Positions 18,148 to 25,429 of a DNA stretch of 46,838 nucleotides are shown here, in pieces. Below the pieces are notes generated by a model. That model did not search any database, was not told where the DNA came from, and saw only the letters and a list, made by a program, of their open reading frames with translations. The position numbers and the translations under genes were made by a program. Origin of the DNA: Sinomonas atrocyanea (GTDB taxonomy: Bacteria; Actinomycetota; Actinomycetes; Actinomycetales; Micrococcaceae); contig NZ_JAUSTE010000016.1 in the NCBI RefSeq assembly GCF_030812675.1, forward strand, positions 1 to 46,838, read 5' to 3'. Position 1 is the stretch's first letter; each line of letters opens with the position of its first letter.

Positions 18148-18777
18148 CTAGAGGACGGTGCGGGCGGCCTGGATGAAGGCGCGGATGAGGCCCAAGTCCT
18201 TCACGCCGCGCGAGGACTCCACCCCGCTCGAGACGTCCACGCCGCCGGGCCGCAGCGCGGCGACCGCCTCGCCCACGTTGTGCGGGGACAGGCCGCCGGC
18301 CAGGGCCCAGAACCCGGCGGGGGCGGCGCCCAGCTCGTCCTCGGAGAACCGCTCGCCGGATCCCGGGACGGCGGCGTCGAGCAGGAGCCGGTCCGGGGAG
18401 GACCAGCCTGCGGCGGTGCGCCGTGTGTACTCGCCGGCGGAGAGGGCACGGATCACGCGGAAGCCGGCCTCGCGGAGGGCATCGGCGGTCGCATCGGGCT
18501 CGTCCCCGTGGAGCTGGACGGTGTCGACGCCGGCCTCCCGGGCGAGCGCCGCGACCTCCTCGAGCGTCTGGTCCCGGACCACCGCCACGGTCTCGACCTC
18601 GCGCCCCACACGGGCGGCGGCGTCCCGGGCGGCGGCCACGAGCCCGGCGGCCAGCCCGGCCCCGACCGTCCGGGGGCTCCCAGGCGCGAGGACGAACCCC
18701 ACCGCGTCGGCCCCGGACTCGACCGCAGCCTCGACGGCCTCGGGCGTGGACAGCCCGCAGATCTTCACCCAGAGCAT
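18148..18777 (-). CDS. trpF: Phosphoribosylanthranilate isomerase
   Basis: A 209-residue TIM-barrel enzyme of tryptophan synthesis that isomerises N-(5-phosphoribosyl)anthranilate. The N-terminal WVKICGLSTPEAV holds the catalytic cysteine (CGL). The second catalytic residue, Asp, is in LLLDAAVPGSG. The phosphate-binding segments WALAGGLSPHNV and GVDVSSGVESSRGVKD complete the signature. Length is typical. The ATG at 18777 overlaps the alaX stop by one base (TGATG), so the two are likely co-translated. No other trp genes lie in the window apart from a TrpG/PabA-type glutaminase 4 kb away. Confidence 0.93.
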   Translation of the reverse strand: MLWVKICGLSTPEAVEAAVESGADAVGFVLAPGSPRTVGAGLAAGLVAAARDAAARVGREVETVAVVRDQTLEEVAALAREAGVDTVQLHGDEPDATADALREAGFRVIRALSAGEYTRRTAAGWSSPDRLLLDAAVPGSGERFSEDELGAAPAGFWALAGGLSPHNVGEAVAALRPGGVDVSSGVESSRGVKDLGLIRAFIQAARTVL

Positions 18778-19493
18778 CAGGCTGCGCCCCCGGCCGCCGG
18801 GGCGCCCTCGGCGTGCTCGGCCTCGTAGCGGACCTTGATGGCCCCGCGCTTGACCTTCACCTCGAGGATCCGCACCCCTGCCAGGTCGGACAGCGACCGC
18901 ACGTGCGTGCCGCCGCACGGCTCCGCGTTGACGCCCTCGATGGCCACCGTGCGGTGCCCGGTGGCGTCCACCGACGCAGTGACAGCCCCGCCGCGGGCGA
19001 GCACGGCGTCCATCTGCGCCTGGAACTCGGCGCGCACGGCCTCCCGCAGCTCTGGGGTCGCGAGCTCGTCCTCGTGGCCCGCGGGATCGAAGTCCAGCCT
19101 CGCCTGTCCGGGGAAGTGCGAATGCCCCGAATGCTGCCAGCCGCGCGCCTCACCGAGATGGCCGAGGAGGTGGCCGGCCGTGTGCAGCGCGGCGTGCCGG
19201 CGGCGCAGTCCCGCATCGATGCGGCAGACGACGGCGGCCCCCACCTCGGGCGCGGAGGGCACACCCGTGAGGACCACGAGTCCCGCGTCGTCGCGCGCCG
19301 GGACGACCGCCGCGCCGTCGAGCGTGCCCTCGTCCGAGGGCTGGCCGCCGCCCTTGGGGTGGAAGATGTTGGGGGACACGGCCGCCCACGCGCCGTCCTC
19401 GCCCGTCCCCGCGGCGATCACGGTCGCCGTCGCCTCGGTGAGGTAGGTGTCGTCGAAGTACGCGTTCGTCTGCTGGTCTACCGCCGTGGTCAT
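18777..19493 (-). CDS. Alanyl-tRNA editing protein AlaX
   Basis: A 238-residue trans-editing hydrolase that removes serine or glycine wrongly attached to tRNA(Ala). It matches the editing domain of alanyl-tRNA synthetase: FHPKGGGQPSDEG, the zinc-binding HTAGHLL (HxxxH) and CGGTHV (CxxxH). It lacks the aminoacylation domain, as expected for stand-alone AlaX. The ATG at 19493 is preceded by AAGGATG. It ends overlapping trpF and is divergent from the dehydrogenase-pterin-glycosyltransferase operon. Confidence 0.92.
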   Translation of the reverse strand: MTTAVDQQTNAYFDDTYLTEATATVIAAGTGEDGAWAAVSPNIFHPKGGGQPSDEGTLDGAAVVPARDDAGLVVLTGVPSAPEVGAAVVCRIDAGLRRRHAALHTAGHLLGHLGEARGWQHSGHSHFPGQARLDFDPAGHEDELATPELREAVRAEFQAQMDAVLARGGAVTASVDATGHRTVAIEGVNAEPCGGTHVRSLSDLAGVRILEVKVKRGAIKVRYEAEHAEGAPAAGGAA

Positions 19494-19559: not shown

Positions 19560-19565
19560 TAGTGT
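19560..19565 (+). promoter_or_regulatory. Leaderless -10 box (TAGTGT) of three-gene operon
   Basis: TAGTGT ends six bases before the ATG at 19572, and no ribosome binding site is seen between them. This supports a leaderless mRNA for the operon and supports that start. Confidence 0.45.
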
Positions 19566-19571
19566 CGGGGC

Positions 19572-20618
19572 ATGGGAGATCCGCACAGGACCGATCCGGG
19601 CCCGGCCATGTCCGGCGCCGGAACGGCGACCGCCACCGCCTACTGGACCACCGGCCCTCGCCGCGGAGAACTGCGGCCCGAGCCCGTTCCGGACCCGGGC
19701 GAGGGGCAGGCCATGGTCCGCACCTTGTACTCGGGGCATTCGCGCGGCACCGAGAACCTCGTCCACGCGTGCAAGGTGCCGGAACGGGTCGCGGACCTCA
19801 TGGAGGCCCCCCATCAGGAGGGCAGCTTCCCGGCCCCCGTGAAATACGGCTACCTCTCGGTGGGCGTCGTCGAGCGCGGCCCGGCCGAGCTCGAGGGCCG
19901 CACCGTCTTCTGCCTGTACCCGCACCAGGACCGCTACGTGGTTCCGGTCGCAGACCTGACGCCGGTGCCCGAGGGCGTGCCGCCGCGGCGCGCGCTCCTC
20001 GCCGGAGCCGTGGAGACGGCGGTCAACGCCCTCTGGGAGGCTGGCCCGCGCATTGGCGACCGGATCGCGGTGGTCGGATGCGGGCTCATCGGCTCCTCCG
20101 CGGCCGCCCTCCTGCGGCGCTTCCCGCTCGACCGGCTCGAGGCCGTGGATCCCGATCCTGCCCGGGAAGGGCTCATGGACGCGCTCGGGGTCCGGCTCGT
20201 CGCACCCCAGGATGCCGCCGAGGACTGCGACATCGTCTTCCACGCCTCCGCGACGCCGGAGGGGCTCGCCCGCTGCCTCGAGATCGTGGGCGATGACGGC
20301 GAGGTGATCGAGCTGTCCTGGTACGGCGACCGCAGCGTGCAGGTCCCGCTCGGCGCGGACTTCCACGCCCGCCGCCTCTCGCTGCGCGCGAGCCAGGTGG
20401 GCCAGGTCGCCCAGCCCCGCCGCGTCCGGCGCACGACGGCGGAGCGCCTCGCCCTCGCGCTGCGCCTCCTCGAGGACCCGGCGTTCGACGCGTTCCTCGG
20501 AGAGGCCTCCGACTTCGCCGACCTGCCCGCCACGATGGACCGGCTCGCCCGGGGCGGCGACGTGGCCGGCGCCTGGCCCGGGCTGTGCCACGTGATCCGC
20601 TACCCCGGCGCCCCGTGA
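19572..20618 (+). CDS. Zinc-less MDR-family dehydrogenase
   Basis: A 348-residue medium-chain dehydrogenase/reductase. The N-terminal GroES-like part reads YSGHSRGTEN (residues 53-62), the SxGTE form also found in BchC-like enzymes; the Cys and GHE zinc ligands of classical alcohol dehydrogenases are absent. The Rossmann motif VVGCGLIGSSAAALL lies near residue 160. So it probably uses NAD(P) but not catalytic zinc. Substrate is unknown. It is the first gene of a tight operon with a PTPS-like protein and a GT4 glycosyltransferase, which suggests a small-molecule (possibly pterin-derived) glycoside pathway. An ATG at 19608 is an alternative start. Confidence 0.82.
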   Translation: MGDPHRTDPGPAMSGAGTATATAYWTTGPRRGELRPEPVPDPGEGQAMVRTLYSGHSRGTENLVHACKVPERVADLMEAPHQEGSFPAPVKYGYLSVGVVERGPAELEGRTVFCLYPHQDRYVVPVADLTPVPEGVPPRRALLAGAVETAVNALWEAGPRIGDRIAVVGCGLIGSSAAALLRRFPLDRLEAVDPDPAREGLMDALGVRLVAPQDAAEDCDIVFHASATPEGLARCLEIVGDDGEVIELSWYGDRSVQVPLGADFHARRLSLRASQVGQVAQPRRVRRTTAERLALALRLLEDPAFDAFLGEASDFADLPATMDRLARGGDVAGAWPGLCHVIRYPGAP

Positions 20619-20672
20619 CGCCGACCCATGGCCGAGACCAGCCGAAACCCAGCCCGTGACCGAAGGAGAACC

Positions 20673-21077
20673 ATGTTCAGCCTCACCGTCCGCGACCATG
20701 TGATGATCGCCCATAGCCTCCCGCGCCCCGCCTTCGGGCCCGCGCAGGGGCTGCACGGCGCCACCTTCGTGGTCGAGCTGACCGTGCGCGCCGGGGCGCT
20801 CGACGCGAACTCGACCGTGATGGACATCGGCGAGGCCTCCGGGCTCCTCTCGGCGGTCCTCGACGGGCTGCGCTACCGCAACCTCGACGAGCACCCCGAC
20901 TTCGCCGGCCGCCTCACCACCACGGAGGTCCTCGCCCAGCACATCGCCGTGGGCTCCGCGGAGCATCTGCGCCGTCTCGGGCACCTCGCGGAGATCGAGG
21001 TCACCCTGCGTGAGACCCCGGACGCCTGGGCCTCGTACACCCTCGCACTGGCCGGAGCCACGGGCTCGGACCGCTGA
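20673..21077 (+). CDS. PTPS/QueD-fold protein lacking catalytic residues
   Basis: A 134-residue protein of the 6-pyruvoyl-tetrahydropterin synthase / 6-carboxytetrahydropterin synthase family. Fold landmarks are the first zinc His14 (IAHSL), HGATFVVEL, NLDEHPDF, TTEVLAQHIA and the pterin-anchoring Glu114 (LRETPDAWASY). The third zinc ligand of the usual HGH motif is Ala30, the catalytic Cys position is about Ala24, and the usual catalytic Asp-His of LDHxxLN is Arg67-Tyr68. A standard PTPS/QueD reaction is therefore unlikely, though a pterin-like ligand may still bind. The ATG at 20673 follows GAAGGAGAACC. The next gene starts one base after its stop. Confidence 0.85.
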   Translation: MFSLTVRDHVMIAHSLPRPAFGPAQGLHGATFVVELTVRAGALDANSTVMDIGEASGLLSAVLDGLRYRNLDEHPDFAGRLTTTEVLAQHIAVGSAEHLRRLGHLAEIEVTLRETPDAWASYTLALAGATGSDR

Positions 21078-21078
21078 G

Positions 21079-22215
21079 ATGGGAGGCCCCGGCGTCCCGG
21101 CGCCTTCCCCGGTCCGGATCCGCCTCGTGGTGCCCGACGGCCTGGGCTACACCTCGGGCGGCACCGTCTACAACACGCGCCTCGCCGAGGCGCTGTCCGC
21201 GCTCGACGTCGACCTCGAGGTCGTCGCCGTGCCGGGAGCGTGGCCAGTGGGCTCCGCCGAGGACCGACACCGGCTCGCCGCCGCGCTCGTTCCCGGCAGC
21301 GGAGGGGCCCATGTGCTGGTCGACGGGCTCCTCGCGCTGGGCGCCCCGGACGAGGTCGCGCCGGCCGCGGCCGCCGTGCGGGACCGCGGCGGCAGCCTGG
21401 GCATCCTCGTGCACCTGCTCCTCGCGGACGCCGCGGGGCTGTCCCGCGAGGAGGCCGAGCGGCTCGCCGACCTGGAACGGCGCGCGCTCGCCGCGGCGGA
21501 CGTGGCGATGGTCCCCAGCGACTTCTCCGGCCGGCGCCTCGCCGAACGCTACGGGATGGTGCCCCGGGTGGTGAGGCCCGGCGTCGTGGGCGCTCCGCCG
21601 GCGGCGGGCAGCCTCGCCGGCGGCGGGGCGCCGCACGTGCTGTGCCTCGCCGCGCTGCTGCCCGGGAAGGGACAGCTGCGGCTCGTGCGCTCGCTCGCCG
21701 CGCTCCGGGACCGGCCCTGGACGCTGACGCTCGCCGGGTACGACGCCGCCGACCCGGCCTACGCGCGCGCGGTGCGGGACGCAGCGGCGGACCTCGGCAT
21801 CGCCGAGCGGGTGCTGGTCCCCGGAGAGCTGCGCGGCGACGCGCTCGAGGCCGAGTGGTCCGGCACGGACCTCACGGTGCTCGCATCGCACCCCGAGACC
21901 TACGGGCTCGCCGTGGTGGAGTCGCTCGCGCGCGGCGTCCCCGCCATCGTCGCCGCGGGCACCGGGGCGGTCGAGGCGCTCGGGCTCTCCCTCGAGGGGG
22001 GCCTGGGAACGGCCGGGGCCGCGGTGGCGCCGCCGGGGGACGCCGACGCCGACGCCGACCCCCTCACCCGCGAGCTCGCGGGATGGCTCGACGGCGCCTC
22101 GGTGCAGGCACGGTGGCGGGCCGCCGCGCTCGCGGCGAGGCCGCTGCTGCCCGGGTGGGAATCGACGGGGCGCGCGGTGCTCCGCGCGCTCAGCCCCGCC
22201 AGCGCAGGGTCATGA
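21079..22215 (+). CDS. GT4-family glycosyltransferase
   Basis: A 378-residue GT-B fold glycosyltransferase of family GT4. The N-terminal acceptor domain begins RIRLVVPDGLGYTSGGTVYN. The donor domain carries HVLCLAALLPGKGQ and the family's EX7E motif ETYGLAVVE (Glu273, Glu281) followed by SLARGVPAIVA. It would transfer a sugar from a nucleotide donor. Its place one base after the PTPS-like gene implies that it acts on, or with, the product of that operon. The ATG at 21079 leaves almost no room for its own leader, so translation is probably coupled. Its last 26 bases overlap the convergent crgA gene. Confidence 0.85.
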   Translation: MGGPGVPAPSPVRIRLVVPDGLGYTSGGTVYNTRLAEALSALDVDLEVVAVPGAWPVGSAEDRHRLAAALVPGSGGAHVLVDGLLALGAPDEVAPAAAAVRDRGGSLGILVHLLLADAAGLSREEAERLADLERRALAAADVAMVPSDFSGRRLAERYGMVPRVVRPGVVGAPPAAGSLAGGGAPHVLCLAALLPGKGQLRLVRSLAALRDRPWTLTLAGYDAADPAYARAVRDAAADLGIAERVLVPGELRGDALEAEWSGTDLTVLASHPETYGLAVVESLARGVPAIVAAGTGAVEALGLSLEGGLGTAGAAVAPPGDADADADPLTRELAGWLDGASVQARWRAAALAARPLLPGWESTGRAVLRALSPASAGS

Positions 22216-22537
22216 GGAACCCCACGATCGCGAGGCCGAAGCCGGCGAGGATGTTCCAGTTGCCGAGCTCGGGGAAGGGGAACAGGCCTTGGGTCACATA
22301 GAACGTGATGATCCAGAGCAGGCCCAGCACCATAAGGCCGAACATGACGTACTTGTACCACTGCGGCGTGGGGCCGGTCCCGCGCTGGGCGCGGCGCTGT
22401 CGCTTGGCCTTCTTCGCGGCCCTGCGCTCTGCCGCCTTGCGGTCGGCCGACCGGCGGTCAGCGGCCTTGGGCTCTGCTGCCTTCTTCGGCGCGGCCGCAG
22501 CCGGGTCCTGCTGGGGCTTGTCCGTCGACTCGGGCAC
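22190..22537 (-). CDS. crgA: Cell division protein CrgA
   Basis: A 115-residue actinobacterial CrgA. These small proteins have two transmembrane helices and link FtsZ, FtsI/FtsQ and peptidoglycan synthesis at the division site. A Lys/Arg/Ala-rich cytoplasmic N-terminus of about 60 residues is followed by WYKYVMFGLMVLGLLWIITFYV and NILAGFGLAIVGFLMTLRWRG, the conserved C-terminus. The GTG start at 22537 is chosen for the GAGGAGG at good spacing. Its neighbours (pabA, pknB operon) match the conserved actinobacterial order. Its 3' end overlaps the glycosyltransferase gene on the other strand by 26 bases. Confidence 0.93.
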   Translation of the reverse strand: MPESTDKPQQDPAAAAPKKAAEPKAADRRSADRKAAERRAAKKAKRQRRAQRGTGPTPQWYKYVMFGLMVLGLLWIITFYVTQGLFPFPELGNWNILAGFGLAIVGFLMTLRWRG

Positions 22538-22702
22538 TCGTCCTCCTCGGGGCCCGCCCGCCACGCAGCGGGGCCCGCTTGATATTCTGCTAAGCACCAA
22601 CACGCTGCACCGCGGGTGCGGGCCGTGCGCTTCTGAGGCTCCAGTCTAGCCGCAGGGGGCCGCCGTTCCCGCGCCGGCCCGGACGGAACGGCTTCTTCAC
22701 GC

Positions 22703-23344
22703 ATGACCACCCGCATCCTCGTCATCGACAACTACGATTCGTTCGTCTACACGCTCGTCGGCTACCTCCAGCAGCTCGGTGCCGAGACGACCGTGGTGAG
22801 GAACGACGACGTCTCCCTCGCCGAGGCGATCGAGCTCGCCGCGGCCCGCGACGGCGTCCTCGTCTCGCCCGGGCCCGGCAACCCTGCCGAGGCCGGGGTG
22901 TGCATCGAGCTGATCAGGTGGTGCGGGGAGAACAGCAAGCCGATGCTCGGGGTGTGCCTGGGCCACCAGGCCCTCGCGGAGGCCTACGGGGGCACGGTGA
23001 CGCACGCGCCGGAGCTCATGCACGGGAAGACCTCCCTCGTCGAGCACGAGGGCAGGAGCGTGTTCGCCGGCCTCCCCTCGCCGTTCACCGCGACCCGCTA
23101 CCACTCCCTCGCCGCGGTCGCGGACACGATCCCGGAGGTCCTCGAGGTCACCGCCCACACGCACTCCGGCGTGGTCATGGGCCTCGCGCACCGGACGGCA
23201 CCGCTGTGCGGCGTGCAGTTCCACCCCGAGAGTGTGCTCACCGAGGGCGGCTACCAGATGCTCGGCACGTGGCTCGAGTCCCTCGGCCTGGCCGGGGCCG
23301 CCGAGAAGGCCTCGCACCTGAGCCCCCTCATCACCGCCGGCTGA
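22703..23344 (+). CDS. pabA: Anthranilate/aminodeoxychorismate synthase glutaminase
   Basis: A 213-residue class I glutamine amidotransferase that releases ammonia for the chorismate-using partner subunit (PabB for folate or TrpE for tryptophan). The catalytic triad is visible: Cys in LGVCLGHQA, and His and Glu in GVQFHPESV. The substrate-binding SPGPGNPAEAG is also present. It occupies the conserved place between crgA and pknB, where actinobacteria carry the gene annotated trpG or pabA. No synthase partner is in the window, so the choice between folate and tryptophan is open. It converges on pknB with a shared hairpin. Confidence 0.9.
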   Translation: MTTRILVIDNYDSFVYTLVGYLQQLGAETTVVRNDDVSLAEAIELAAARDGVLVSPGPGNPAEAGVCIELIRWCGENSKPMLGVCLGHQALAEAYGGTVTHAPELMHGKTSLVEHEGRSVFAGLPSPFTATRYHSLAAVADTIPEVLEVTAHTHSGVVMGLAHRTAPLCGVQFHPESVLTEGGYQMLGTWLESLGLAGAAEKASHLSPLITAG

Positions 23345-23365: not shown

Positions 23366-23392
23366 CGGCTGAGCCGAGCCGGGGCTCAGCCG
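23366..23392. terminator. Hairpin between pabA and pknB
   Basis: A perfect 10-base-pair stem (23366-23375 with 23383-23392) with a 7-base loop. It spans the pknB stop codon and lies just after the pabA stop, so it can serve both convergent genes. Confidence 0.5.
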
Positions 23393-25380
23393 TTCCCGCC
23401 GCCCCGATGGCCGGGCGGGTTGCCGCTGTTGCCCGGGTTCGTGTCCGTCGGCGTTGGGCTCGGGGTGTCGCTGGGCGACGGCGTCGGGCTCGGCGCCGGG
23501 GGTGGCGGCGGGGCCTTCGCCACGATCAGGGTGACCGTTCCGCCCTGGTCCACGCTGCCGTCCGCGGCCGGGTCCTGGTACGTGACCGTCCCCGGCGCGG
23601 CGTTCGCGTTCTCCTGCTCCTGCACGGCGGCCTTGAGGCCGCGGTCCGCGAGGGCCTTCTGGGCGTCGGCGACGGCCATGCCGCGCAGGTTCGGCACGCT
23701 GACCTTGCCCGTGGAGACGGTCAGCTCCACCTCGGTGCCCAGGCCCACGGTCTGGCCGGCCCCCGGGTTGGTGGCGATGACGGTGCCGTATGGGGCCTTC
23801 GGGTCGTTCGCGAGGATCGAGCGCGGCTTGATCTGGAGCCCCAGCGCCTGGAGCGTCGAGCGGGCGCCCGATTCGGTGGCGCCGATGATCGAGGTGGGGA
23901 TCGTCGCGTTGGCCGGCCCGTCCGAGATCTCGAGCGAGATCGAGGCGCCCTTCGCGAGCTGGGTGCCCGCGTCGGGCACCGTGCGGATCGCCGTGCCCTT
24001 GGGCACCTTGGGGTCCTTGGGGTGGGAGATGTTCGGCTGCAGGCCCAGAGACTGGAGCTTGAGCGCGGCCTCGGTCTCGGACATGTTGGTCACGGACGGC
24101 ACAGTGATCATCTGCACCGCCGAGGGCTGGTTCATGTACTGGTACAGGAGCAGGCCGCCGCCGGTCGCCACGAGCAGCGCCATGACCAGCAGCACCACGA
24201 TCCACGCGCGCCGCCGGCCGCGCCCGCGGCGGGCGCGCTCCTCGTCGCGGGCGTCGTCGAACTCGATGAGGTCGGCTGCGGCGGGGGCGAACGCCGGGAA
24301 TTCGCCCGTGTCCCCGAGGTGGGTCGAGGACTCGTCCCCCGGCCCCTCGGTGCCGCGGCCCTCTCGGGCCGCGCCGTCCTGGCCGCCCTCCGCGCCGACG
24401 AGGCCGACGGCGGCGGTCGGGATCCCGGCGTCGTCCGCCGGCCTGACGGCAGCGGCGGCAGCGGCGGCGGCCCCCGCCGCGGCCGCGGCTCCAGCGGCGC
24501 CCCGGCCGGGACGGGCCGGTACCACGACTCCTGCGCGCGCGCCCCGGAGCGCGCGCTGGAAGGCGGCGGCGCTCTGGAAGCGGTCGTCGGGGTCCTTCTC
24601 GAGGGCACGGTCCAGCACGCTCTGCAGGGCCGGAGAGACGTCCGGGTTGAAGTCGGCGGCGGGCCGGGGCACGGACTGGACGTGCTGGTAGGCCACGGAC
24701 ACGGCGGACTCGCCCACGAAGGGCGGCCGGCCGGTCAGGAGCTCGTAGAGCAGGCAGCCGGCGGAGTAGAGGTCGCTGCGGGCGTCCACGACCTTGCCCT
24801 GCGCCTGCTCGGGGGAGAGGTACTGCGCGGTGCCCACCACGGCCTGGGTCTGGGTGACCGTCGCGGAGGTGTCCGCGGTGGCCCTCGCGATCCCGAAGTC
24901 CATGACCTTCACGGTCCCGGGCTCGTTGCAGGCCATGACGTTCGCGGGCTTGATGTCCCGGTGGATGATGCCGTGCCGGTGGCTGTACTCGAGCGCGGAG
25001 AGCACGCCGAGCAGGGCATCGATGGAGTCGTCGACACTCGGGGTGCCCTCGCGGATCACATCGCGCAGGGTACGGCCCTCGACGTACTCCATGACGATGT
25101 ACGGCACCGCGACGCTATGCGGCGAGAGTGGGTCCGGGTTGTGCTCGCCGGTGTCGTACACGCCCACGATCGAGGGGTGGTTGAGCCCGGCGACGGCGCG
25201 CGCCTCCCGTTCGAAGCGGGCCCGGAACTGGCCGTCACGGGCCATGTCCGGGCGCAGCATCTTCACCGCGACCCGGCGCCCCAGCCGCAGGTCGAGGCCC
25301 TCGTAGACGTCCGCCATCCCGCCCCGGCCGATCAGCTCGCCGAGCTCGTATCTGCCCGAGAGGACGACGGGAGCGGGCAT
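23386..25380 (-). CDS. pknB: Ser/Thr protein kinase PknB with PASTA domains
   Basis: A 664-residue membrane kinase that senses cell-wall fragments and phosphorylates growth and division proteins. The kinase domain (about 10-275) has GRGGMADV, Lys40 in VAVKML, HRDIKPAN and DFGIA. A long Ala-rich juxtamembrane linker follows, then one transmembrane helix (WIVVLLVMALLVATGG). Three extracellular PASTA repeats and a Pro/Ser/Thr-rich tail finish the protein; Mycobacterium PknB has four. I prefer the ATG at 25380, preceded by AGAGGACGAG and leading quickly into GRYELGELIG. A GTG at 25425, five bases from the pknA stop, is the alternative. Confidence 0.93.
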   Translation of the reverse strand: MPAPVVLSGRYELGELIGRGGMADVYEGLDLRLGRRVAVKMLRPDMARDGQFRARFEREARAVAGLNHPSIVGVYDTGEHNPDPLSPHSVAVPYIVMEYVEGRTLRDVIREGTPSVDDSIDALLGVLSALEYSHRHGIIHRDIKPANVMACNEPGTVKVMDFGIARATADTSATVTQTQAVVGTAQYLSPEQAQGKVVDARSDLYSAGCLLYELLTGRPPFVGESAVSVAYQHVQSVPRPAADFNPDVSPALQSVLDRALEKDPDDRFQSAAAFQRALRGARAGVVVPARPGRGAAGAAAAAGAAAAAAAAVRPADDAGIPTAAVGLVGAEGGQDGAAREGRGTEGPGDESSTHLGDTGEFPAFAPAAADLIEFDDARDEERARRGRGRRRAWIVVLLVMALLVATGGGLLLYQYMNQPSAVQMITVPSVTNMSETEAALKLQSLGLQPNISHPKDPKVPKGTAIRTVPDAGTQLAKGASISLEISDGPANATIPTSIIGATESGARSTLQALGLQIKPRSILANDPKAPYGTVIATNPGAGQTVGLGTEVELTVSTGKVSVPNLRGMAVADAQKALADRGLKAAVQEQENANAAPGTVTYQDPAADGSVDQGGTVTLIVAKAPPPPPAPSPTPSPSDTPSPTPTDTNPGNSGNPPGHRGGGNG

Positions 25381-25429
25381 GGGCTCGTCCTCTCGTTCCA
25401 GGGGCGGGTGGGCGGAATGGGTCACAGGG

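Follow-up and report, generated by a model that had tools for sequence, protein, structure and literature searches.

Proteins of the PTPS/QueD fold (COG0720) are characterized by short motifs, CxxxHGH in QueD and CxxxxxHGH or ExxHGH in other members, according to PMC5041015. One protein of this fold, SCO6650 of Streptomyces coelicolor, has a solved structure (PDB 3d7j), and no function has been found for it. Among the enzymes that open the ring of GTP, GTP cyclohydrolase III (GCH_III) constitutes a family distinct from GTP cyclohydrolase II (GCHII), and riboflavin synthesis in Sinorhizobium meliloti requires BrbF, a creatininase-family formamidase that was assayed on the formyl intermediate (both from PMC9478397). 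Glycosyltransferases acting on pterins are also on record, namely, tetrahydrobiopterin (BH4) glucosyltransferase and the Chlorobium PGT (PMC5683033). Here, we analyze a three-gene operon of Sinomonas atrocyanea, which encodes on the forward strand a dehydrogenase of the medium-chain dehydrogenase/reductase (MDR) superfamily that lacks the catalytic-zinc ligands and bears an SxGTE motif (19572..20618), a PTPS/QueD-fold protein of the SCO6650 type (20673..21077), and a GT4-type glycosyltransferase (GT; 21079..22215). The window, i.e., the whole stretch of DNA that was analyzed, is the entire 46.8-kb contig (46,838 nucleotides; NZ_JAUSTE010000016.1) of a 4.12-Mb genome. Our favored interpretation, to which we give about an even chance, is that the Micrococcaceae retain, in this trio, a reduced version of a biosynthetic cluster of the SCO6650 type that is widespread and starts from ring-opened GTP.

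The PTPS-like protein belongs to the family PF01242 (E value of 7e-22; 78.1 bits against a cutoff of 22.4), and its closest solved homologue is SCO6650 (E value of 8.9e-33; 56% identity). It reaches only 36.9 bits against a cutoff of 89.25 with the NCBIfam QueD model, and the cutoff of the PTPS family is likewise far from reached. The residues named in the original prediction, namely, His14, an Ala near position 24, His28, Ala30, Arg67-Tyr68, and Glu114, are all as it stated. Two of the three zinc histidines are kept (His14 and His28); in an alignment with full-length Escherichia coli QueD, Ala30 falls at the third and Arg67-Tyr68 at the Asp-His pair. By their spacing from His28, Ala24 (four residues before it), Gly22, and Gln25 occupy the Cys, Cys, and Glu sites of the three published motifs, respectively, leaving no catalytic Cys or Glu. 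Glu114 aligns with the QueD Glu, which we take to be the pterin-anchor position. Across 80 rows (the window and 79 of 80 surveyed loci, with L064 dropped for undetermined residues), His14, Ala24, His28, Ala30, Asp51, Asn70, and Glu114 are each found in 80/80 and Tyr68 is found in 78/80, an invariance that is partly due to selection, as HGAT and TVR-H-MIA were the search patterns of the survey. In a pattern-free set of 26 rows (20 of 30 genome matches, including the window, and 6 of 25 plasmid records), His14, Ala24, His28, Ala30, Asp51, Tyr68, and Asn70 are each present in 26/26 and Glu114 is present in all 25 rows that reach that site. The active-site letters HAQHADxYNE are common to the window protein and SCO6650. 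Judged from these alignments, the lack of the third zinc His and the catalytic triad is the state of the whole bacterial SCO6650 family. A 2008 paper by Spoonamore reportedly describes SCO6650 itself as devoid of both zinc and the triad and unable to form the PTPS product, its pterin-like pocket being retained. The notion of a repurposed PTPS fold is thus supported; the repurposing is not unique to this locus, being that of an entire family with a solved structure.

The gene neighborhoods of this family were surveyed in the best 80 of 580 confirmed matches. The MDR gene is directly upstream of the PTPS-like gene in 76/80 and the GT gene is directly downstream in 73/80, with both adjacent in 71/80, bearing out the expectation of constant MDR and GT4 partners; contig ends explain some of the missing neighbors (L070 and L095). 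Among 39 loci not of the trio type and flanked on either side by 6 kb or more of sequence, 36 encode at least one of GCHII, a RibD_C reductase, and a creatininase-family protein. By individual family, these 39 loci contain a methyltransferase (MT) in 34, a CDP-alcohol transferase in 34, GCHII in 27, RibD_C in 23, a flippase-like protein in 21, a creatininase in 17, a sulfatase-like protein in 16, and cytochrome b561 in 3. The order MDR-PTPS-GT4 followed by MT recurs on plasmids of Microbacterium, Streptomyces, Rhizobium, Thiodictyon, Methylosinus (where the gene at the MT place is annotated as hypothetical), and Agrobacterium, with further partners varying. The original prediction anticipated similar PTPS variants in other actinobacteria; they are indeed present there, and the gene set has a wider scope, extending to Pseudomonadota, Gemmatimonadota, Bacteroidota, and Haloarchaea. 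Within 58 genomes (that of S. atrocyanea and relatives), the MT is found in 10, all of them PTPS positive and 9 with it on the same contig near the PTPS gene, and a fused GCHII-RibD_C protein (E value of <1e-100) is found in 5, each about 4 kb or less from the PTPS match. In a reverse survey of 31 plasmid records matching the MDR, with distances taken by eye from the positions, a PTPS homologue lies within about 1.2 kb in 26 (16 bacterial and 10 haloarchaeal). A literature search, which covered subscription journals thinly, returned no account of this cluster, and the pathway is apparently widespread and undescribed. A queuosine or 7-deazapurine role was set aside, as none of the annotated partner proteins is QueE or QueC, although no search was aimed at these two. 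Two further contexts deserve mention. Two Streptomyces plasmids (L117:9001-9426 and L118:9001-9399) carry an SCO6650-type PTPS without MDR or GT, among neighbors that include MBL-fold hydrolase, cupin, and sigma-factor genes, possibly a second context of the family. In the Rhizobium and Agrobacterium plasmid clusters, cytochrome b561 is found together with a flippase-like gene (L108:12029-12565 and L111:12011-12544); these two genes suggest a membrane or redox side of the pathway.

The linked cyclohydrolase is GCHII or, in some haloarchaea, GTP cyclohydrolase III, which argues that the pathway probably starts from a ring-opened pyrimidine derived from GTP and not from dihydroneopterin triphosphate. 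The cyclohydrolase neighbor that the original prediction called for is found in distant relatives, albeit of these types and not at the window locus; the possibly pterin-derived glycoside that it proposed remains a putative product. At the site corresponding to Met120 of the S. fungicidicus protein, the 33 loci in which GCHII was matched have Tyr in 16, Met in 12, His in 4, and Ile in 1. A creatininase is encoded within the examined stretch of 17/17 loci with a non-Tyr GCHII versus 1/16 of those with Tyr, and among the non-Tyr rows, that of Halomonas (Ile) stands most clearly apart; at two creatininase loci (L071 and L079), no GCHII was found in the surveyed sequence. The Met-type Streptomyces enzyme SCO6655 reportedly stops at the formyl intermediate FAPy (a 2006 paper by Spoonamore). 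This distribution suggests that ring opening and deformylation are split between the Tyr-less GCHII and the creatininase. Given the precedent of BrbF and the presence of a creatininase in all loci with a Tyr-less GCHII, the cluster creatininase is, by analogy, most likely a formamidase. In the 46 of 86 loci that bear an MT, a creatininase alone is found in 15, RibD_C alone in 22, both in 4, and neither in 5 (Fisher P value of 6.7e-5, uncorrected for kinship).

The haloarchaeal MDR shows 32 to 39% identity, and the haloarchaeal versions were sampled at eight loci (L112 to L115 and L120 to L123). A PTPS homologue lies near the MDR in seven of them, an annotated MT comes next in six (L112, only a weak Pfam match), and GT, CDP-alcohol transferase, and creatininase are found in four, four, and one, respectively. 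Three loci have, beside the MDR, a gene that bears the annotation GTP cyclohydrolase IIa (L113:7166-7948, L114:7210-7971, and L123:7157-7939, all on plasmids), and Pfam confirmed GCH_III (PF05165) in both of those tested, L113 (2e-82) and L114 (3e-87). As GCH_III here replaces GCHII beside the MDR, the same core is coupled to nonhomologous enzymes of one step. These plasmid GCH_III copies are presumably additional to a housekeeping copy. Of seven haloarchaeal PTPS rows, six are complete, and all six retain three zinc histidines (HSH), with Glu in place of the Cys. Their scores with a SCO6650-type profile (47 to 59 bits for six proteins) exceed that of E. coli QueD (24 bits), and SCO6650 is the best solved match of the L113 protein, with a narrow lead over QueD. 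At the C terminus, L113 and L123 match the AWASYER of SCO6650 letter for letter, and the remaining four complete rows deviate from it.

One possibility, in our view rather unlikely, is that the PTPS-like protein is a nonenzymatic carrier or sensor of a pterin or pyrimidine, which presents or protects a labile intermediate while the MDR and GT perform the chemistry. The protein has lost its catalytic Cys, its Asp-His pair, and a zinc His but has retained the fold and the anchor Glu, and the loss is uniform, with Ala24 and Ala30 in all rows of both the pattern-selected (80/80) and the pattern-free (26/26) sets. Moreover, Agrobacterium PruR provides a precedent for pterins that act via a binding protein (PMC13259868). 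However, the haloarchaeal partners of the same MDR keep the three zinc histidines and the Glu at the Cys position, as if the site did or does chemistry, and in bacteria, Tyr68 (78/80) and Asn70, Asp51, and His14 (80/80 each) resemble a defined site.

Of the 33 Micrococcaceae loci surveyed, 31 are of the trio type, defined by the presence of none of eight partner families in the examined sequence; partner genes are found in the other two, L033 and L050. In a midpoint-rooted tree of MDR plus PTPS (78 rows, with a very long Bacteroidota branch, L080, and with L050 left out owing to undetermined residues and L095 owing to the lack of an MDR sequence), 32 of the 33 trio-only rows form one clade with support of 100/96 that is nested in extended-cluster lineages, with two changes being needed; the only row outside it, L070, is truncated where its contig stops. 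A quicker tree of 79 rows, including L050 and excluding L080, places L050, an Arthrobacter locus that carries the full cluster, among the extended-cluster rows and outside the trio clade. Given this nesting and the position of L050, the trio is best read as a nested, reduced Micrococcaceae derivative of a larger cluster. A tblastn search of the window with 13 neighbor families matched only the MDR, PTPS, and GT genes. Elsewhere in the same genome, on contig C6, there is a second GCHII with the active-site Tyr (L025:9512-10480, reverse strand) that is 68% identical over 222 amino acids to the Micromonospora cluster enzyme, and tblastn of its 20-kb surroundings found no other partner family. The rib operon is also present and able to supply the pyrimidine. 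We considered and rejected the idea that the full cluster is hidden elsewhere in this genome, in which homologues of the MT and flippase were not found and tblastn matched no other partner family around the second GCHII.

Several observations weigh against deriving the trio from a GTP-based pathway. No cyclohydrolase is linked to the trio at the Sinomonas locus, the second GCHII is unlinked to it and was not seen in every same-genus genome among the matches listed, and the MT and flippase queries that drew a blank in this genome differ in weight, as the former matches 10 relatives and the latter had no positive control. The link to GTP in S. atrocyanea is drawn through homology alone. The association of the Tyr site with creatininase is uncorrected for kinship, and most of the non-Tyr rows are from related actinobacteria. 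Creatininase clusters mostly do without RibD_C, which a single linear route leaves unexplained, and the creatininase scores better with the mycofactocin MftE model than with ArfB, both scores being below the cutoff. The core itself is not wholly constant: GT is absent in 3 of the 31 trio-type loci (L028, L052, and L054, from Arthrobacter/Pseudarthrobacter), although the sequence continues, and the minimal retained pair may be the MDR and PTPS-like genes. No PTPS gene is nearby in 5 of the 31 MDR records, namely, two of Natrarchaeobaculum (in one of which the MDR is flanked by GCH_III and an insertion sequence element), Streptomyces NBC_00019 (where it is 39 kb away), Rhodococcus, and Nonomuraea. 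Conversely, 4 of 20 listed plasmid records (of 25) have a PTPS without an adjacent MDR match (two of Streptomyces anthocyanicus, NBC_00028, and NBC_00019). The MDR-PTPS linkage is hence strong but not absolute.

Some of these points could alternatively mean that the trio-only lineage co-opted the operon for a substrate that has nothing to do with GTP, such that the pterin link of the relatives no longer applies, a scenario that we regard as unlikely. The absence of all eight partner genes from 31/33 Micrococcaceae loci (L033 and L050 being the exceptions), the missing MT and flippase, and the fast evolution of the GT (dN/dS of up to 0.63) speak for it; nevertheless, the invariant residues of the MDR and PTPS-like proteins, Glu114 included, are the same as in full clusters, and riboflavin synthesis is a possible source of the pyrimidine. 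A conventional PTPS or QueD whose catalytic residues have moved to other positions is a highly improbable identity for the PTPS-like protein despite the PF01242 match and the annotation of plasmid relatives as “6-carboxytetrahydropterin synthase,” for the QueD model score is far below its cutoff and the alignments with SCO6650 and E. coli QueD, which are the check on which the original prediction had staked itself, reveal no displaced Cys, His, or Asp-His.

Turning to the other two proteins of the trio, the dehydrogenase reached no Pfam MDR domain, its sole Pfam match being below the cutoff and not to an MDR domain, and its BchC-like match in NCBIfam is weak and also below the cutoff. Its structure model (pLDDT of 92.4) has L-idonate dehydrogenase as the best match in a fold search (TM score of 0.77), and its nearest neighbors are zinc dehydrogenases. 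On the strength of the weak NCBIfam matches and the model, the predicted fold is that of an MDR with a Rossmann domain. Ser45, within the SxGTE motif, and Tyr82 (counted from the ATG at 19608) are invariant in 28 aligned MDR rows, which lack a conserved Cys/His pair, and Ser45 is present in 76/79 MDR rows of the pattern-selected survey. At these two positions, zinc-dependent MDRs presumably carry Cys and His (ligands Cys, His/Glu, and Glu); accepting this, the family alignment upholds the claim that the zinc ligands are absent. The Foldseek matches of the model include geissoschizine synthase, an MDR without catalytic zinc that reduces an iminium. The GT contains a glycosyltransferase group 1 domain (PF13692; 2.2e-15), and its model (pLDDT of 93.7) finds MshA as the best fold match, followed by maltose-1-phosphate synthase and sucrose-phosphate synthase. 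Profile searches gave sucrose-phosphate synthase at 3e-38, MshA at 2e-34, and BH4 glucosyltransferase at 4e-11; on these values, the GT being a BH4 glucosyltransferase is not favored.

Taking these findings together, we propose the following scheme for the full cluster. GTP would be opened by GCHII, or by GTP cyclohydrolase III in some haloarchaea, to give a 2-amino-pyrimidine nucleotide. A Tyr-less cyclohydrolase would be expected to go no further than the formyl intermediate, from which the creatininase-family protein linked to it would remove the formyl group. Reduction of the ribose to an alditol may be the task of the RibD_C reductase. The PTPS-like protein, which in bacteria would have no catalytic metal, might hold the pterin-like ring on Glu114 and shape or cyclize it, and the zinc-less MDR could act on a C=N or C=C bond by adding or withdrawing hydride. 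GT4 would then add a sugar, and the MT would modify the product in full clusters. In Sinomonas and Arthrobacter, from whose loci the dedicated supply genes are gone, the substrate would have to be furnished by housekeeping riboflavin synthesis or by the second GCHII, which is not linked to the trio. A bolder version, which we offer as distinctly doubtful, is a pathway shared by bacteria and haloarchaea in which ring-opened GTP becomes a reduced, glycosylated, and methylated pterin- or pyrimidine-alditol. In full clusters, this would be joined to membrane lipid by the linked CDP-alcohol phosphatidyltransferase and moved by the flippase-like protein, yielding a molecule for redox or signaling purposes that is exported or kept in the membrane (a few clusters include cytochrome b561). 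Such a pathway would have three ways of opening GTP and a central T-fold enzyme whose zinc was lost in bacteria and kept in haloarchaea, with Sinomonas and Arthrobacter drawing on the riboflavin pathway to make a short form that is soluble and bears a sugar.

At the locus itself, the spacings between the three genes are 54 bases and 1 base, confirming the one-strand packing. A −10-like hexamer, TAGTGT (19560..19565, forward strand), ends 6 bases before the ATG of the MDR gene at 19572. Of 20 loci, 9 were aligned (the window and 8 relatives from the same genus), and in each the pattern TA[GC][TG]GT is found 6 to 9 bases 5′ of an ATG, a conservation that supports the proposed leaderless promoter; the MDR transcript is likely leaderless. 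The PTPS-like gene has a ribosome-binding site, AAGGAGA (20663..20669, forward strand), ending 3 bases before its ATG. In comparison with 11 same-genus relatives, the ratio of nonsynonymous to synonymous substitution rates (dN/dS) is 0.08 to 0.34 for the MDR gene, 0.08 to 0.44 for the PTPS-like gene, and 0.23 to 0.63 for the GT gene, the fastest evolving of the three. One PTPS alignment in this set (L010) has a stop, and the genome search counted none within the L010 match. The trio is therefore real and under purifying selection within the genus; pseudogenes or chance open reading frames are ruled out by the dN/dS values below 1 and by the presence of the PTPS-like gene in 30/58 genomes, including that of S. 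atrocyanea. The flanking genes, identified by eye, encode an AlaX-like editing protein (18777-19493, reverse strand, divergent from the operon), a CrgA-like protein (22190-22603, reverse strand, convergent with it), an anthranilate/para-aminobenzoate synthase glutaminase (22703-23344, forward strand), and a PknB-type kinase with PASTA repeats (23386-25425, reverse strand).

The SCO6650 protein family was already known by its structure; what is added here is the reduced trio and the logic of a cluster that spans two domains of life. For a protein thus far without a known function, the gene order across these domains points to GTP-derived diaminopyrimidines as candidate substrates and names candidate partner enzymes, with the MDR, PTPS-like protein, and GT4 as a minimal unit. 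If the proposal is true, many soil actinobacteria and haloarchaea would make a class of GTP-derived metabolites, and a metal-enzyme family would have members that function in one gene context whether or not they possess the zinc site.

Comparison with the described systems brings out how the locus relates to each. With PTPS, QueD, and PTPS-III, the window protein shares PF01242, the anchor Glu, and two zinc histidines; unlike them, it has neither the Cys nor the Asp-His pair, its third zinc His is Ala, and its motif reads QxxHGA. A Streptomyces relative possesses a CDP-alcohol transferase, MDR-PTPS-GT4-MT, a creatininase, and a Met-type GCHII, of which the window keeps only the MDR, PTPS-like, and GT genes; GCHII, creatininase, MT, and CDP-alcohol transferase are all missing from the locus. 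The pteridine glycosyltransferases are represented among the profile matches of the window GT by the BH4 glucosyltransferases 5ze7 and 9v0l, although it is far nearer to sucrose-phosphate synthase and MshA. Finally, the two-step opening of GTP, represented by archaeal GTP cyclohydrolase III with ArfB and by the rhizobial formamidase BrbF, is known for riboflavin (PMC9478397). Here, it is absent from the window locus and occurs in the setting of MDR-PTPS-GT-MT, where the parallel lies in GCH_III beside the haloarchaeal MDR and in the creatininase that accompanies the Tyr-less GCHII.

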